DNA from: Gammaproteobacteria bacterium
GTDB lineage: Bacteria; Pseudomonadota; Gammaproteobacteria; Acidiferrobacterales; UBA6901
Reading direction: 5' to 3'
Assembly: GCA_016218345.1 (NCBI GenBank)
Contig: JACREH010000029.1
Location: 1-50,436, forward strand
DNA: 50,436 nucleotides
The notes beneath the pieces are model-generated. The model worked only from the letters and a program-made list of their open reading frames with translations. It did no database searches and was not told where the DNA came from. Within the stretch, counting starts at the first letter, position 1. The number at the start of each line of letters is the position of its first letter. This document shows positions 3,058-14,779 of the stretch, one piece after another. The translations under genes and the position numbers were made by a program.

Positions 3058-3849
3058 TTACGCGGCCCGGTCTTGGCGTTCGTACAGAAACCGCAACACT
3101 TCGCCGCGCAGACACAAGTAGCGCGGGTCCTGAAGCAGTTCCAGACGCTGGCGGGGCCGCGGCAAATCGATGTCGAGAATCTGGCCGATGGTCGCGGCCG
3201 GGCCGTTGGTCATCATCACGATACGGTCGGACAGCAGCACCGCCTCGTCCACGTCGTGCGTTACCATGATCGTGGTGCAGCCGGTGGCGGCGACGATGCG
3301 CAGGATCTCGTCTTGCAAATGGGCGCGGGTGAGCGCGTCGAGCGCCCCGAGCGGCTCGTCCAGCAGCAGCACCTTGGGTTGCATGGACAGCGCGCGGGCG
3401 ATGCCGACGCGCTGCTTCATGCCGCCCGAGATCTCGTGCGGGTACTTGTGCGCGGCGTGCACCAGGCCCACCAGTTCCAGGGCCTCGTGGGTGCGGCGCT
3501 GCAAATCGGCCTTGGCTTCCTGGGACTTGAACACGCGTTCGACCGCGAGATAGACGTTCTCGAAACAGGTCATCCACGGCAACAGCGAGTGATTCTGGAA
3601 CACCACCGAGCGATCCGGCCCGGGCCCGGCGATCTCGCGGCCGGCGCACACCAGCACGCCGCCCGAGGACTCGGTAAGCCCGGAGATCAGATTCAGCAGC
3701 GTCGACTTGCCGCAGCCCGAATGGCCGATGATCGACACGAACTCGCCCTGGCGAACGGCGAGATTCACGTCACGCAGCGCCACGAACCGGCCGCTGCGAG
3801 TGTCGAACACCTTCTGGACGTTTTCCAGCAATACGTAACGTTGTTCCAC
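3058..3849 (-). CDS. nrtD: Nitrate ABC transporter ATP-binding protein NrtD
   Basis: This 263-residue cytoplasmic ATPase powers nitrate import with the NrtB permease. Seen in order are Walker A GHSGCGKS, a Q-loop (VVFQNHSLLPW), the ABC signature SGGMKQR, Walker B VLLLDEPLGALD and the switch histidine in VTHDVDEA. The DVDEAVLLSDRIVMMTNGPAA stretch is characteristic of the nitrate/sulfonate/taurine subfamily. The length is that of a single-domain NrtD, not the NrtC fusion with an extra binding domain. The gene follows nrtB after three bases, so translation is probably coupled. Aliphatic sulfonate transport is the main alternative, but the adjacent NrtA and ANTAR leader favour nitrate. Confidence 0.9.
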   Translation of the reverse strand: MEQRYVLLENVQKVFDTRSGRFVALRDVNLAVRQGEFVSIIGHSGCGKSTLLNLISGLTESSGGVLVCAGREIAGPGPDRSVVFQNHSLLPWMTCFENVYLAVERVFKSQEAKADLQRRTHEALELVGLVHAAHKYPHEISGGMKQRVGIARALSMQPKVLLLDEPLGALDALTRAHLQDEILRIVAATGCTTIMVTHDVDEAVLLSDRIVMMTNGPAATIGQILDIDLPRPRQRLELLQDPRYLCLRGEVLRFLYERQDRAA

Positions 3850-3852
3850 GGT

Positions 3853-4752
3853 TCACCCCTGATATTCGAAGCGTTTGGCGACCAGCACCAGCGCCTGCTC
3901 TAGCAGCAGACCGACGATGCCGACCACGAAGATCGCGATGATGATGTGTTCGACGTTGAGGTTGTTCCACTCGTCCCACACCCAGAAACCGAGGCCCACG
4001 CCGCCGGTGAGCATCTCGGCCGCGACGATCACCAGCCAGGCGACGCCGATGGACAGGCGCACACCGGTCAGCATGTACGGCAGCACCGCCGGGAACAGGA
4101 TCTTGCTGAACACCTTCCATTCGTTGAGCCGCAGCACCCGCGCCACATTCAAATAGTCCTGCGGCACGCGCGTCACGCCCACGGCGGTGTTGATGATCAT
4201 CGGCCAGATGCTGGAGATGAAAATCACCCAGATCGCCGCCGGCTGTGCCTCCTTGAACACGTACAGGCCGATCGGCAACCAGGCGAGCGGCGACACCGGT
4301 CGCAGCAGGCTGATGATCGGCGCGCTCATCCGGTTCAGAAAAGTGAACCGGCCGATCATGAAACCGAACGGAATGCCGATCAGCGCCGCCAGGCCGAAGC
4401 CGATCGCGACACGCGCCAGCGAATGCAGCACATTCCAGCCGATGCCCTGGTCGTTCGGACCGTTCTGATAGAACGGATTGCCGAACACTTGCTGCGCCGA
4501 ATCCCAGGTCTTGACCGGTCCGGGCAGACCGCTGAGCGTGGAGATTTGCGCCCACAGCAGCACGAACAGCACCAGCCCGAGCGCCGGTGGCACAACGTAG
4601 CGCAGCGCCGCCAGTAATTGCGGGGCATAGCGCGGCAACAACGGCAGGTTTTTTTGGACCGCCGCCGCTGCACCGGCCTCCACGGCCGGCGCGGCGTGCG
4701 CATCCACGTGCTTCGACATTTCTACCTTCGCCTTCAGTTTCACAACCGCCAT
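3853..4752 (-). CDS. nrtB: Nitrate ABC transporter permease NrtB
   Basis: The 299-residue inner-membrane subunit belongs to the binding-protein-dependent permease family (BPD_transp_1). About 50 polar, alanine-rich residues come first, then roughly six membrane segments. The cytoplasmic EAA-like loop appears around VARVLRLNEWKVFSKILFPA. The segment SLLRPVSPLAWLPIGLYVF is typical of nitrate/taurine permeases. It is 18 bases downstream of nrtA and three bases upstream of nrtD, forming the usual nrtA-nrtB-nrtD transport unit. Confidence 0.9.
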   Translation of the reverse strand: MAVVKLKAKVEMSKHVDAHAAPAVEAGAAAAVQKNLPLLPRYAPQLLAALRYVVPPALGLVLFVLLWAQISTLSGLPGPVKTWDSAQQVFGNPFYQNGPNDQGIGWNVLHSLARVAIGFGLAALIGIPFGFMIGRFTFLNRMSAPIISLLRPVSPLAWLPIGLYVFKEAQPAAIWVIFISSIWPMIINTAVGVTRVPQDYLNVARVLRLNEWKVFSKILFPAVLPYMLTGVRLSIGVAWLVIVAAEMLTGGVGLGFWVWDEWNNLNVEHIIIAIFVVGIVGLLLEQALVLVAKRFEYQG

Positions 4753-4770: not shown

Positions 4771-6036
4771 TTACGCCTTGACCTTGAAACCGTTGGCATA
4801 GGCCTTCGGGTCCTTGCCGTCCCACACCACGCCGTCGATCAGCTTGCTCACGCGCATCGGGTTGGACGGCACCGGCACCTTGGCCAGCGCCGCGGCTTGT
4901 TTGTAGAATTCGATCTGGTTCACCTGCTTGGCGACAGCGAGATAGTCCGGATCGGTCTTGAGCAGGCCCCAGCGCTTGTGCTGGGTCAGGAACCACATGC
5001 CGTCCGACAGGTGCGGGAAGTTCACGAATCCGTCGTTGTAGAACTTCATGTAATTGGGATCCTTCCAGCTCTTGCCGTTGCCGTTGTCGTAATCGCCCAG
5101 GAAACGTCCGAGGATCACCTCTTCCGGCGCGTTCACATATGACTTGCTGGCGATGATCTGGGCCACCTTGGCGCGGTTGGCGGTGGCATCGATGAACTTC
5201 GAGGCCTCAAGGACCGCCGCCATCATGGCGCGCGTGGTGTTCGGATATTTTTTGGTGAACTCCAGACTCGTGCCCAACACCTTTTCAGGATGATCCTTCC
5301 AGAGATCCTGGGTGGTGATGGCGGTGAAACCGATCTTGTCGTAGATGGCGCGCGCCCCCCACGGCTCGCCGACGCAGTAACCGTCCATGTTGCCGACGCG
5401 CATGTTGGCCACCATCTGCGGCGGCGGCACGACGATGGTCTTGACGTCGGTCATCGGGTTGATGCCGTAGGTCGCCAACCAGTAATAAAGCTCCATGGCG
5501 TGCGTGCCGGTCGGGAAGGTCTGGGCAAAGGTGTACTCGCGCTTCTCCTTGGCGATCAGCGCCTTGAGCTTGGCGCCGTCGGTGGCGCCTTTTTCCTTGA
5601 GCTGATTGGAGAGCGTGATCGCCTGGCCGTTGTGATTGAGTCCCATGAGCACGGCCATGTCTTTCTTCGGCCCGCCGACGCCGAGCTGCACGCCGTAGAT
5701 CAGGCCGTAGAGCACGTGCGCAGCATCGAGCTCGCCGTTCACGAGCTTGTCGCGCACCGCCGCCCAGCTGGCCTCCTTGCTCGGCGTGATCTTGATGCCG
5801 TACTTCTTGTCGAAGCCCATCTCCGAGGCGATCACCACGCTCGCGCAGTCGGTGAGCGGAATGAAGCCGATCTTGACCTCGGTCTTCTCCGGCGCGTCCG
5901 AGCCCGCCGCCCAGGCGCCGGCGCGCAGCCCCGGCGTCAGTCCGGACAACCCGGCGGCGCCGAGCGCCGCGGCACCGGCCTTGAGAAATCCGCGGCGCGA
6001 CAGACCGCCGTTGTTCGTGTCTTTTTTGCGTTGCAT
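4771..6036 (-). CDS. nrtA: Periplasmic nitrate-binding protein NrtA, Tat-exported
   Basis: This 421-residue substrate-binding protein captures nitrate for NrtBD. The N-terminus carries a twin-arginine signal (SRRGFLKAGAAALG, residues 13-26), so it is probably exported folded. The mature part begins with the NrtA/NasF motif VKIGFIPLTDCASVVIASEMGFD and contains LYGLIYGVQLGVGGPKKDM and the C-terminal KRWGLLKTDPDYLAVAKQVN. The start ATG follows the CGGAG of the leader. Expression should depend on the sigma-54 promoter and on antitermination in the 5' leader. A role as the cytoplasmic nitrate sensor NasS is unlikely because of the Tat signal. Confidence 0.92.
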   Translation of the reverse strand: MQRKKDTNNGGLSRRGFLKAGAAALGAAGLSGLTPGLRAGAWAAGSDAPEKTEVKIGFIPLTDCASVVIASEMGFDKKYGIKITPSKEASWAAVRDKLVNGELDAAHVLYGLIYGVQLGVGGPKKDMAVLMGLNHNGQAITLSNQLKEKGATDGAKLKALIAKEKREYTFAQTFPTGTHAMELYYWLATYGINPMTDVKTIVVPPPQMVANMRVGNMDGYCVGEPWGARAIYDKIGFTAITTQDLWKDHPEKVLGTSLEFTKKYPNTTRAMMAAVLEASKFIDATANRAKVAQIIASKSYVNAPEEVILGRFLGDYDNGNGKSWKDPNYMKFYNDGFVNFPHLSDGMWFLTQHKRWGLLKTDPDYLAVAKQVNQIEFYKQAAALAKVPVPSNPMRVSKLIDGVVWDGKDPKAYANGFKVKA

Positions 6037-6053
6037 GTCATTCTCCGATTGTG

Positions 6054-6106
6054 AAAAATAAAAAGGCGCCCATCCCCCCGAGATAGCTCTCGGATTGATG
6101 GACGCC
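6054..6106 (-). terminator. Intrinsic terminator (attenuator) in the nrtA leader
   Basis: Read on the minus strand, GGCGTCCATC (6106-6097) pairs over ten positions with GATGGGCGCC (6074-6065). A smaller hairpin (CCGAGA-GCTA-TCTCGG) lies inside, and the U-rich tail TTTTTATTTTT (6064-6054) follows at once. It ends only 17 bases before the nrtA start codon, so it works as an attenuator. Its 5' arm shares bases with the second ANTAR hairpin (6099-6114), so the two structures exclude each other. Confidence 0.9.
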
Positions 6107-6137
6107 GTTGTCCAGTTTGCCGGCCGCCGTTGGCCGG
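6099..6137 (-). promoter_or_regulatory. ANTAR-responsive RNA: two hairpins with identical AACGGC loops
   Basis: On the transcribed minus strand, P1 (6137-6120) is CCGGCC-AACGGC-GGCCGG and P2 (6114-6099) is TGGAC-AACGGC-GTCCA, separated by five bases. Both loops are six bases long with A at position 1 and G at position 4, the known recognition signature of ANTAR antiterminators such as NasR, NasT, AmiR and EutV. The 3' arm of P2 is part of the terminator stem, so ANTAR binding would release the terminator and allow nrtABD transcription. Two ANTAR proteins are encoded immediately upstream. Confidence 0.92.
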
Positions 6138-6153
6138 GCTTATCTAGTGCGTT

Positions 6154-6169
6154 AGCAAATCGCGTGCCA
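6154..6169 (-). promoter_or_regulatory. Sigma-54 (RpoN) promoter of the nrt operon
   Basis: The minus strand reads TGGCACGCGATTTGCT, an exact match to the -24/-12 consensus TGGCACG-N4-TTGCW. Transcription would start near 6143, a few bases before ANTAR hairpin P1. RpoN itself is encoded at 13277-14779. Confidence 0.88.
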
Positions 6170-6231
6170 CTGTCTGTACCCGCGGAATCAGCGGTTTCCC
6201 AGACTGTTCCTGTCCAACCGACCGGCTCCGT

Positions 6232-6248
6232 TGCACCACTTCGGTGAG
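6232..6248. promoter_or_regulatory. Candidate NtrC binding site
   Basis: TGCACC-ACTTC-GGTGAG closely matches the NtrC dyad GCACC-N5-GGTGC, with one mismatch at the end. It sits about 95 bases upstream of the predicted start site, a normal place for a sigma-54 enhancer. Only one clear site was found, whereas NtrC enhancers often have two. Confidence 0.55.
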
Positions 6249-6291
6249 CCGAATCCGTCGGCGCTTGAAAATGGCGCAGCGGGCAGCCTGC

Positions 6292-6912
6292 TTATACCTG
6301 CGTCAGCAATTCCTCGGCGGCGACGATGACCTGGGCCACGTCGAGCAACCGTTTGCCGCGATCCATCGCCAGTTTGCGCAACGCCCGGTAGGCCTCGTCC
6401 TCGGTGCAACCGCGCTGCCGCATCACGATGCCCTTGGCGCGCTCGATGAGTTTGCGCTCGGTTAGGTTGGCGTTGGCCTTCTCCAGGTCGCGCTTGAGGA
6501 TCTGATACTCCCGGAAACGCGCGATCGCCACGTCGATCACCGGCTTGATCCGCTCGCTCGCCAGGCCGCGCACCACGTAGGCGCTGACCCCGGCCTGCAT
6601 GGCGGCGCGAATCTTGGCGCTGTCCTCGTCGTGAGTGAAGATCACCACCGGGCGCGGCTGGTCGCGGCTGATGCAGCACAGATGCTCGAGCGTGTCGCGA
6701 TCCGGGGACTCCGTGTCGATGATGATCACGTCCGGCTGGTGCTCGCGCACCTGCGCCGACAGATCGCCGCCCGCCCCCGCGCAGCACACCACGCGATAGC
6801 CGGCGTCCAGCAGAGCGTGTTCCAGAAACACCGCGCGCTTGGAGCTTTCGTCCACCAGCATTACCTGCATCCCGGCTGTGCCCGGCCCGGTGCCGCCGTC
6901 GTGCGCGATCAT
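6292..6912 (-). CDS. nasT: NasT-type ANTAR antitermination regulator
   Basis: This 206-residue response-regulator-like protein has a receiver domain followed by an ANTAR RNA-binding domain. The receiver retains the acidic pocket (VMLVDE) and an Asp in the acceptor position (DVIIIDTESPDRDTL, D66). It then shows THDEDSAKIRAAMQAGVSAY. The C-terminal ANTAR domain contains ERKLIERAKGIVM and EAYRALRKLAMD. NasT proteins relieve termination in nitrate assimilation leaders, and the matching RNA target lies about 150 bases downstream. The ATG at 6912 overlaps the upstream stop (ATGA); ATG 6870 is an alternative that would remove 14 residues. The usual inhibitory partner NasS is not in the window. Confidence 0.9.
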   Translation of the reverse strand: MIAHDGGTGPGTAGMQVMLVDESSKRAVFLEHALLDAGYRVVCCAGAGGDLSAQVREHQPDVIIIDTESPDRDTLEHLCCISRDQPRPVVIFTHDEDSAKIRAAMQAGVSAYVVRGLASERIKPVIDVAIARFREYQILKRDLEKANANLTERKLIERAKGIVMRQRGCTEDEAYRALRKLAMDRGKRLLDVAQVIVAAEELLTQV

Positions 6913-7499
6913 TTCTGCGAGACCAGCAGTCGCTCGACCGTCACGACGTTGTGCGAGATTTCTCCCAGGCGTTTGCCGTTTTCCAAGGCCATCTTGCGCA
7001 GCGCCGCGTGCGCCGCATGATCCGACAGGTTGCGGCGCTGCATCAGAATACCCTTGGCTCGCTCGATCATGCGACGCTCGGCGAGCTTGGCCAGCGCCTC
7101 GTCGCGCTGGTTGCGCAACGACTGGAGTTCGGCAAACCGCGCGAATGCCGCCTCCAGCACCGACGCGATGCGCGCGGCCTGGAAACCGTCGACCACATAG
7201 GAGCTCACCCCGGCCTTTATCGCCGCACGGGTGGCCTGGCTGTCGCTGCGCGCGGCGAACACCACCACCGCGCACGGCAGCTGCTCGTCCAGCCGGCGCA
7301 GTTGTTCTAGGAAGTCGGGCGACGGCGCGGCCAGTTCGGCAATAACCGCATCCGGCCGCGCGCTTTGCGCGTAGAACAGCAGATCGTCGTCCGGGCCGAT
7401 GGTGGCCACCACCCGGTGGCGCGCCGCCGCCAGCGCCCGCTCGATCTGCAGGGCGCGTTCGTGGCGTTCGGTGACCAGCAGAATTCGTAATCGCATCAT
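6909..7499 (-). CDS. Second ANTAR regulator, receiver acceptor Asp replaced by Glu
   Basis: This 196-residue paralogue of the next gene has a receiver-like domain (residues 1-125) and an ANTAR domain (about 135-196, ERRMIERAKGILMQRR...AALRKMALENGKRL). At the position of the phospho-acceptor aspartate it has glutamate (DAVIAELAAPS, E55), and the acidic pocket LVTE is reduced, so normal phosphorylation is unlikely. The Met-Met start at 7499/7496 is preferred; an in-frame GTG at 7553 would add 18 residues. Its stop overlaps the start of nasT. Possible roles are a constitutive antiterminator, a heterodimer partner for NasT or a competitor. Confidence 0.85.
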   Translation of the reverse strand: MMRLRILLVTERHERALQIERALAAARHRVVATIGPDDDLLFYAQSARPDAVIAELAAPSPDFLEQLRRLDEQLPCAVVVFAARSDSQATRAAIKAGVSSYVVDGFQAARIASVLEAAFARFAELQSLRNQRDEALAKLAERRMIERAKGILMQRRNLSDHAAHAALRKMALENGKRLGEISHNVVTVERLLVSQK

Positions 7500-7672
7500 G
7501 TGAGGCAGTTTCCGGGCGACATTACCAACCACCCATAGCAACCGCCGTGCCACACCGGGAAATCTGAATATTCTCTTTAAATCAGATAGTTATCAGAAAA
7601 CCCGAAAACCGCGTTTGCACCAAGACGGGCGGGGCAGGTGGAATCGTGAACCAGATTGGTACAGAGCCGCGA

Positions 7673-13276: not shown

Positions 13277-14779
13277 ATGAAACAATCTCTGGAATTAAAA
13301 CTCGGTCAACACCTGACCATCACCCCGCAGCTACAGCAGGCGATCCGGCTGCTGCAATTGTCCTCGCTCGAGCTGCAACAGGAGATTCGCGAGGCGATCG
13401 AGAACAATCCGCTGCTCGAGGAGGTCGAGGAATCCCCGGCCGACGTCAAGGCCGAATCCCTCGAGGCCGCGGCCGACGCCGAACTGAACGGCGCCGAGCC
13501 GGGCGCCGAAGAGTCCGCGACCGATGCCGCGGAGACCGCGGCTGAACGCGAAACCGACGCCGATCAGGAGTTCGACCAGGAACCGGCCGGCGACAGTGAC
13601 TGGGAGGCCGCCGAGATCTCGCTCGACAGCCCGGCCCGCAAGGATCAGGACGGCCCGGCCCCCGACCTGGACGCGCGCAACAGCGCGCCGCTGTCGCTGC
13701 GCGATCACCTCGCCTGGCAAATGCAGATGACGCCGTTCACCGACGGCGACCGGCGCATCGCGCTCGCGCTCATCGACGCGATCAGCGACGACGGCTACCT
13801 CAGCTGCGGGCTGGACGAGATTCAACAAGCGGTGGGCGGCGAGCCACCGCCCGAGATCGACGAGATCCAGGCGGTGCTGCACCAAATCCAGAATTTCGAT
13901 CCGGTCGGCGTGGGTGCGCGCGACTTGGGCGAGTGCCTGCAACTGCAATTGCGCAATCTCGATCCGGCCACGCCGTTCCTGGCCGATGCCAAGCGGCTGG
14001 CGACCCCGGAACACCTCGATCTCCTGGCCAAGCGCGACTACGGTCAGCTGCGCCGGCTGCTCAAGCTGAAACCCGAGGACCTGCAGCACGCCATCACCCT
14101 CATCCAGGGGCTCAACCCGCGCCCGGGCGCCGGCATCCAGGGCACCCAAGCCAGTTATGTCGTTCCCGATGTCCTGGTGCGCAAGCAGCGCGGCGTGTGG
14201 CGCGCCGAACTCAACGGCCAAACCGCGCCGCGGCTGCGCATCAACCATGGTTACGAGCACATGATCCAGCGCGGCAAGGACAACGCCGACAATAAATACC
14301 TGCAAGACCGCCTGCAGGAAGCACGCTGGTTCATCAAGAGCCTGGCGAGCCGCAGCGAGACCCTTCTTAAAGTGGCGCGCGCCATCGTCGACCGGCAACG
14401 GGCGTTCTTCGACCACGGCCCGGAGGCGATGAAACCGCTGGTGCTGAACGACATCGCCGAGGCGGTCGGCATGCACGAATCCACCATCTCGCGCGTCACC
14501 ACCAATAAATACATGCTCACGCCGCGCGGCATCTTCGAGCTGAAATACTTCTTCTCCAGCCACGTCAGCACCGCCGACGGCGGCACCTGCTCGGCCACGG
14601 CGATTCGCAGCCTGATCAAGAAGCTGGTTGAGGTCGAAAAACCCCTGAAACCGATCAGCGACAGCACCATCGCCGAGATATTGAGCAAGCAGGGCATCTT
14701 CGTGGCCCGCCGGACGGTGGCCAAATACCGCGAATCGCTGCATATTCCGCCGTCCAGCCAGCGGAAATCCTTGGTATAA
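13277..14779 (+). CDS. rpoN: RNA polymerase sigma-54 factor RpoN
   Basis: This 500-residue sigma-54 directs transcription from -24/-12 promoters with AAA+ activators. The glutamine-rich region I (LELKLGQHLTITPQLQQAI..LQLSSLELQQEI) binds activator and core polymerase. An acidic region II follows, then a core-binding domain, a helix-turn-helix segment (LNDIAEAVGMHESTISRVT) and the C-terminal RpoN box ARRTVAKYRE that contacts the -24 element. It sits in the usual lptB-rpoN-hpf order. At least one target is in this window: the nrtA promoter at 6154-6169. Confidence 0.97.
   Translation: MKQSLELKLGQHLTITPQLQQAIRLLQLSSLELQQEIREAIENNPLLEEVEESPADVKAESLEAAADAELNGAEPGAEESATDAAETAAERETDADQEFDQEPAGDSDWEAAEISLDSPARKDQDGPAPDLDARNSAPLSLRDHLAWQMQMTPFTDGDRRIALALIDAISDDGYLSCGLDEIQQAVGGEPPPEIDEIQAVLHQIQNFDPVGVGARDLGECLQLQLRNLDPATPFLADAKRLATPEHLDLLAKRDYGQLRRLLKLKPEDLQHAITLIQGLNPRPGAGIQGTQASYVVPDVLVRKQRGVWRAELNGQTAPRLRINHGYEHMIQRGKDNADNKYLQDRLQEARWFIKSLASRSETLLKVARAIVDRQRAFFDHGPEAMKPLVLNDIAEAVGMHESTISRVTTNKYMLTPRGIFELKYFFSSHVSTADGGTCSATAIRSLIKKLVEVEKPLKPISDSTIAEILSKQGIFVARRTVAKYRESLHIPPSSQRKSLV

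Follow-up and report, generated by a model that had tools for sequence, protein, structure and literature searches.

Leaders with two hexaloop hairpins, the second overlapping a terminator, are known to occur before nitrate and nitrite transporter genes (Ramesh 2012; PMC3369931). The loops of such ANTAR targets follow a rule of A at the first and G at the fourth position (A1/G4) above a C:G closing pair, which was found by SELEX for NasR (PMC7496416) and also for EutV (PMC3369931; PMC8934654). The NasS-NasT system has been described (PMC3795266; PMC5424462), and joint control by NtrC/sigma-54 and an ANTAR protein has been published for Klebsiella nas and for Pseudomonas nalA-nirBD (PMC5424462; PMC12830290). 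For nalA-nirBD, a passage of PMC12830290 that cites Romeo 2012 gives an NtrC/sigma-54 promoter combined with NasT antitermination. Sigma-54 sites have also been reported ahead of ANTAR genes and of nitrate ABC transporter genes (PMC12316311). The locus described here has a leader that belongs to this known class of ANTAR dual-hexaloop attenuators. Judging from its sequence, the leader very probably acts as an ANTAR-type transcription attenuator of a nitrate-transport operon, by the full mechanism proposed below.

The window (the whole stretch of DNA that was analysed, 50,436 nucleotides) comes from a genome that is 80.6% complete. All genes of the locus lie on the minus strand. The nrtA gene (4771-6036) encodes a substrate-binding protein with a twin-arginine export signal (Pfam: NMT1_2, 361 bits), and its SRRGFLK signal is also present in the NrtA proteins of relatives. 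It is followed by nrtB (3853-4752), a nitrate ABC permease, and nrtD (3058-3849), a nitrate ABC ATPase, both of which score above the NCBIfam nitrate-transporter cut-offs (TIGR01183, 252.7 bits versus 209; TIGR01184, 351.8 bits versus 291.8). Upstream of the leader are two adjoining ANTAR genes, in agreement with the initial annotation: ANT2 (6292-6912), with a receiver-like and an ANTAR domain (Pfam: ANTAR, 79.2 bits in the genome search), and, upstream of it, ANT1 (6909-7499; ANTAR match of 54.5 bits in the same search). Their reading frames overlap by 4 nt, and ANT1 is probably translationally coupled to ANT2. A genome-wide ANTAR search of the 80.6% complete genome found only these two ANTAR genes. 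Farther along, behind a porin gene, the minus strand of the window encodes a 162 amino acid protein (1205-1693) without any Pfam or NCBIfam match, which is kept near nrtD in four relatives of the same order. Owing to this downstream gene of no known function we considered cyanate instead of nitrate as the transported substrate; the idea was dropped, given the lack of any Pfam or NCBIfam match and the nirB-like genes that share the cluster in relatives.

Transcription of the leader is probably started by a sigma-54 polymerase that NtrC activates. The -24/-12 promoter TGGCACGCGATTTGCT (6154-6169, minus strand) is an exact TGGCAC-GCGAT-TTGCT, and its -12 element at 6155 places the predicted transcript start near 6143, about six bases before the first hairpin. 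The motif TGGCAC-N5-TTGC with exact spacing is found at 6169-6154 and at 7552-7537; its strict form, TGGCAC-N5-TTGCW, has two sites on both strands of the window, one of them the leader promoter, versus 0.06 expected. The second promoter, TGGCACGGCGGTTGCT (7537-7552, minus strand), is likewise an exact consensus and precedes the ANTAR pair; together with a dyad at 7647-7663 it had been missed in the initial annotation. Since the ANTAR operon has a sigma-54 promoter of its own, the leader could also be reached by read-through. Most relatives of the same order have an equivalent promoter about 50 bp upstream of the ANTAR gene. The rpoN gene is itself in the window (13277-14779); the two promoters predicted to be its targets are about 6-7 kb away.

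The evidence for NtrC sites is uneven. An NtrC-like dyad at 6232-6248 has its centre 71 bp upstream of the -24 element and three mismatches to TGCACCANNNTGGTGCA. The initial annotation had named this dyad, and it is indeed present and well placed; with three mismatches, however, it is not unusual over 50 kb, where five NtrC-like sites with up to three mismatches occur versus 2.6 expected. Its position gives a local p-value of about 0.02, which is not significant over the whole window. It is the weakest element of the leader, and its position and the relatives, rather than its sequence alone, speak in its favour. The dyad of the ANTAR promoter (7647-7663) has two mismatches and lies 103 bp from the -24 element (local p-value < 0.005). 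No bona fide NtrC scored above the cut-off in this 80.6% complete genome, and NtrC is present in all seven relatives examined.

Downstream of the promoter on the minus strand are two small hairpins with identical six-base ANTAR loops, AACGGC, having A at position 1 and G at position 4: P1 (6120-6137; CCGGCC-AACGGC-GGCCGG) and the putative antiterminator P2 (6099-6114; TGGAC-AACGGC-GTCCA). They are followed on the same strand by an intrinsic terminator (6054-6106), which consists of a hairpin at 6106-6065 with ten outer and seven inner pairs (-32.6 kcal/mol, z -5.7) and a U-tract at 6064-6054. The 5' arm of the terminator starts within the P2 loop and uses up the P2 3' arm. The leader from 6036 to 6150 folds stably on the minus strand (z -6.0). 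The nascent RNA from 6143 to 6099 folds as P1 and P2, and when it is extended to 6054 it folds as P1 and the terminator, with P2 gone; P2 and the terminator are mutually exclusive in the predicted folds. A search of both strands of the 50 kb for two ANNGNN hexaloops with a terminator overlapping the second found one place, the leader, versus an average of 0.05 in shuffled windows, and none of 1000 shuffles of the leader itself gave the combination of hairpins and terminator. The exact promoter, the paired AACGGC loops and the ten-pair terminator that shares its 5' arm with the second hairpin had all been pointed out in the initial annotation, and all are borne out at these positions.

How general is this arrangement? 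We took loci with relatives of ANT2 from public genomes and from 57 genomes of the same order and examined 35 leaders behind an ANTAR gene, the window's leader included. P1, P2 and a terminator overlapping P2 are present in 33 of the 35, from alpha- and gammaproteobacteria; they follow an ANTAR gene, and most of those whose locus extends far enough have nrtA or another nitrate gene downstream. Our leader search required A1, G4 and at least four pairs, and the conservation of these features, including A1 and G4 in 33 of 33 leaders, is not by itself independent evidence. A2, which was not required, is found in all 33 as well, and pairs 5, 6 and 7 of P1, also not required, are formed in 32, 28 and 30 leaders, respectively. 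The first four pairs of P2 are formed in every one of the 33. In an alignment of 16 leaders all named pairs form and nine of twelve have changed on both sides (six of the seven in P1 and three of the five modelled in P2); the covariation score is 0.576, versus 0.180 after shuffling and at most 0.10 with the partners slid. In 16 of 17 genomes a P1-P2 covariance model built from these leaders has one or two matches each; the matches sit at ANTAR-nitrate loci, and in the window's own genome the only one is this leader. We rejected a second leader at the nirB of this genome (contig C66; L153 around 6158): the sigma-54 promoter there looks exact and is accompanied by an NtrC-like dyad, but there is no hexaloop pair or ANTAR leader, and the covariance model has its single match elsewhere. 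Two relatives have second dual-hexaloop elements (G028:C64:7378-7426 and G001:C9:25180-25220); of these, one has a second NrtA-like gene close by and the other is near a nirB-like cluster, which suggests small ANTAR regulons.

The comparison also bears on a different reading of the hairpin at 6106-6054, namely that it terminates the ANTAR operon and that the nrt genes are expressed constitutively from a promoter below it. The hairpin is strong and does lie behind the ANTAR genes. However, an exact sigma-54 promoter stands upstream of it, only 17 bases separate the U-tract from the nrtA start codon, and in 33 loci the terminator goes together with a hexaloop pair that covaries, whereas a plain terminator needs no P1. 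We consider it highly improbable that the hairpin serves as an operon end.

The sigma-54 promoter occurs in two positions. The window, G048 and many alpha- and betaproteobacterial loci have it between the ANTAR gene and the leader, often at a distance of about 31-32 nt from P1, as in L013-L016, L020 and L025. Most relatives of the same order have it upstream of the ANTAR gene, whose stop codon is soon followed by the leader (after 17-86 nt in most), which places the ANTAR gene inside the attenuated transcript. The window carries both promoter positions. The promoter spacing, the covariation and the exclusive terminator in 33 leaders uphold the central claim of the earlier reading, a sigma-54-transcribed ANTAR attenuation leader before a nitrate ABC transporter.

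The leader also matches an existing Rfam family. A check against Rfam, as the initial annotation had advised, gave a full-length match of narK (RF03032) to positions 6168-6099 (47.2 bits; gathering score 43.2). In the printed alignment, consensus positions 1-15 of RF03032 are the -24/-12 sigma-54 promoter, a DNA signal and not RNA; the modelled hairpin is the ANTAR hexaloop AACGGC; and the structure has P1 only, the unpaired tail ACGAC-AAAGAC-GUCG being a second, unmodelled A1/G4 hexaloop. The narK motif, reportedly introduced in a 2017 paper by Weinberg, appears from this to be a sigma-54 promoter plus an ANTAR dual-hexaloop element with half its structure modelled. Among the loci of 16 relatives scanned with Rfam none has a narK match above the gathering score; the family as modelled thus takes in no more than part of the group. 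The Rfam family P11 (RF00625), a Pseudomonas sRNA that we take to be the nalA leader, scores 14.4 bits on the window's leader, below its cut-off of 70.

We propose that these elements work together in the following mechanism. Under nitrogen limitation, phosphorylated NtrC probably activates the sigma-54 polymerase, which would start near 6143 and transcribe P1 almost at once. When active ANTAR protein is absent, the GGC in the loop of P2, together with the 3' arm of this hairpin, would pair with the downstream GGAUGGGCGCC to form the terminator, and transcription would end at 6064-6054. The switch is probably opened by an ANTAR protein: a dimer that binds P1 and then P2 would hold P2 in place and block the terminator, and nrtABD would be transcribed. 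ANT2 is the likely RNA binder at the leader, and ANT1 more likely modulates ANT2, as a hetero-partner or an antagonist, than binds the leader itself.

This assignment of roles comes from the residues that grip the RNA. In EutV, RNA binding dropped 55-60-fold with the changes E160A and Y164A and was lost altogether with M172A (PMC8934654). ANT2 retains E160, Y164 and M172, and all tested EutV RNA-contact positions in it are either kept or NasT-typical; it is the probable RNA-binding antiterminator. ANT1 has a degenerate receiver and differs at Y164 (His), M172 (Leu), E160 (Asp) and N173 (Glu; all in EutV numbering), and because these key contacts are lost it is predicted to be a poor RNA binder. 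The two proteins fall into separate lineages on the tree, and relatives have one or the other by itself, immediately ahead of a leader of this kind. Three further tandem ANTAR loci were found, in G048, G381 and G422 (upstream members at L072, L202 and L205). M172 is lost in the upstream member of all four pairs (Leu, Ala, Leu and Leu), with at least three independent losses on the tree, and E160 and Y164 are also lost in three of the four. M172 is lost in none of about 95 other ANTARs, a set that includes the downstream members, the single ANT1-type proteins and near-identical Caulobacter rows. The three independent pairs all point in the same direction, which in a sign test gives a p-value of 0.25, significance being beyond the reach of three pairs.

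Could ANT1 and ANT2 nevertheless be interchangeable antiterminators, each able to open the leader in homodimers or in mixed dimers? In both, the ANTAR and receiver domains are kept and the reading frame is intact, and the single ANT1-type proteins of relatives, encoded directly before the same leader, keep the contact residues. It is in the tandem loci that the upstream members have lost the very methionine on which RNA binding by EutV depended, three of the four also being without Y164 and E160, while M172 is kept in the others. We regard equivalence of ANT1 and ANT2 as unlikely. A somewhat less unlikely, though still doubtful, reading is that ANT1 is decaying redundant baggage with no role, and the branches of the upstream members are indeed longer (0.43-0.58 versus about 0.25 in intact sisters). 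Decay sits poorly with open reading frames that are intact in four genomes of two orders, with upstream copies in G381 and G422 that have diverged by about one change per site and still contain no stop, and with the 4-nt overlap of the ANTAR genes, which G048 shares with the window. The residue losses suggest that ANT1 is a pseudo-ANTAR partner that may either help or restrain an RNA-binding ANT2. Charge complementarity between the two proteins at the position of the receiver lysine (the tandem ANT2s have Arg or Asn there, most single ones Asp) was considered and dropped for too few cases.

What might the ANTAR proteins sense? NasS, sought through its expected similarity to NrtA and with the Pfam model NMT1_2, was not found in the window's own genome (80.6% complete) or in G012, a genome that is 99% complete, in one contig, and has the same leader. 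In the former the exported NrtA is the only NMT1_2 protein above the cut-off, next to one sub-cut-off fragment; in G012, NrtA, again with an export signal, is the only NMT1_2 protein at all. We also looked for a NasS adjoining the operon: a further NrtA-like gene, perhaps NasS, is present in the alphaproteobacterial loci but not in this one. No NIT domain was found in either genome, nor, in the window's own, a NasR-type NIT-ANTAR fusion. Both ANTARs of the window have the receiver-ANTAR architecture of NasT, and their best matches among solved structures are 1s8n (a putative antiterminator) and EutV (6wsh/6ww6). In the receiver of ANT2 the invariant lysine has become Arg; in that of ANT1 it is Asp, and Glu stands in place of the phospho-acceptor Asp. 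The lysine is also replaced in every close relative of either protein. The residues of a phosphorylation-controlled receiver (Asp, Thr/Ser and Lys) are not all intact, control by a kinase is therefore unlikely, and phosphorylation as the trigger was set aside on account of the missing lysine.

The genes controlled would point to nitrate as the inducing signal. The gate may alternatively answer to another cue, such as general nitrogen status or c-di-GMP. That would agree with two genomes in which the exported NrtA is the only NMT1_2 protein above the cut-off and NIT is absent, and c-di-GMP inhibits the NasT of Pseudomonas putida (PMC12830290); on the other hand, the window's genome is incomplete, the controlled genes serve nitrate uptake, and the well-studied nas ANTAR leaders respond to nitrate or nitrite. 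A non-nitrate cue is a possibility to be taken seriously, although we do not favour it. Equally tentative is our suggestion that, in bacteria that lack NasS, ANT2 binds the hexaloops and the pseudo-ANTAR ANT1 replaces NasS as a regulatory subunit (hetero-partner or antagonist), the balance of the two-ANTAR complex setting antitermination. If true, this balance, and not a separate nitrate sensor, would govern antitermination. In the literature searched we found no description of NasS-less tandem ANTARs with a degenerate partner.

These results indicate that the little-explained Rfam narK is an ANTAR attenuator together with its sigma-54 promoter, and they extend the ANTAR attenuator class to many proteobacterial nitrate transporters. 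The stripped tandem partner and the lack of a recognisable NasS raise the question of how ANTAR antitermination can respond to its signal when no NasS, NIT or kinase takes part.

Among known systems, the leader resembles RF03032 down to the promoter bases and the AACGGC hairpin. Like the nalA leader of nirBD-PA1779-cobA in Pseudomonas aeruginosa, it has a sigma-54 promoter immediately upstream of the attenuator and nitrogen genes downstream, and a receiver-ANTAR protein, which opens the nalA attenuator, probably does so here as well; nalA controls nitrite reductase and has NasS, whereas here a transporter is controlled and NasS was not found. The leaders of Enterococcus eut share the dual-hexaloop A1/G4 rule and the overlap of P2 with the terminator, but EutV is phosphorylated by EutW, and the receivers here, without the invariant lysine, are unlikely to be under kinase control. 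Klebsiella oxytoca nasF is alike in its two hexaloops, the second overlapping the terminator, in being Ntr-dependent and in having transport genes first; NasR carries its own NIT nitrate sensor, in contrast to the receiver-type ANTARs of the window, in which no NIT domain was found. The initial annotation had drawn the parallel to nasF in a different lineage, and the parallel holds; the layout is not new, given Rfam narK and the published cases of dual control. As a member of its class the leader is ordinary, and the less expected part of the locus is the loss of RNA-gripping residues from ANT1, as in three other genomes.
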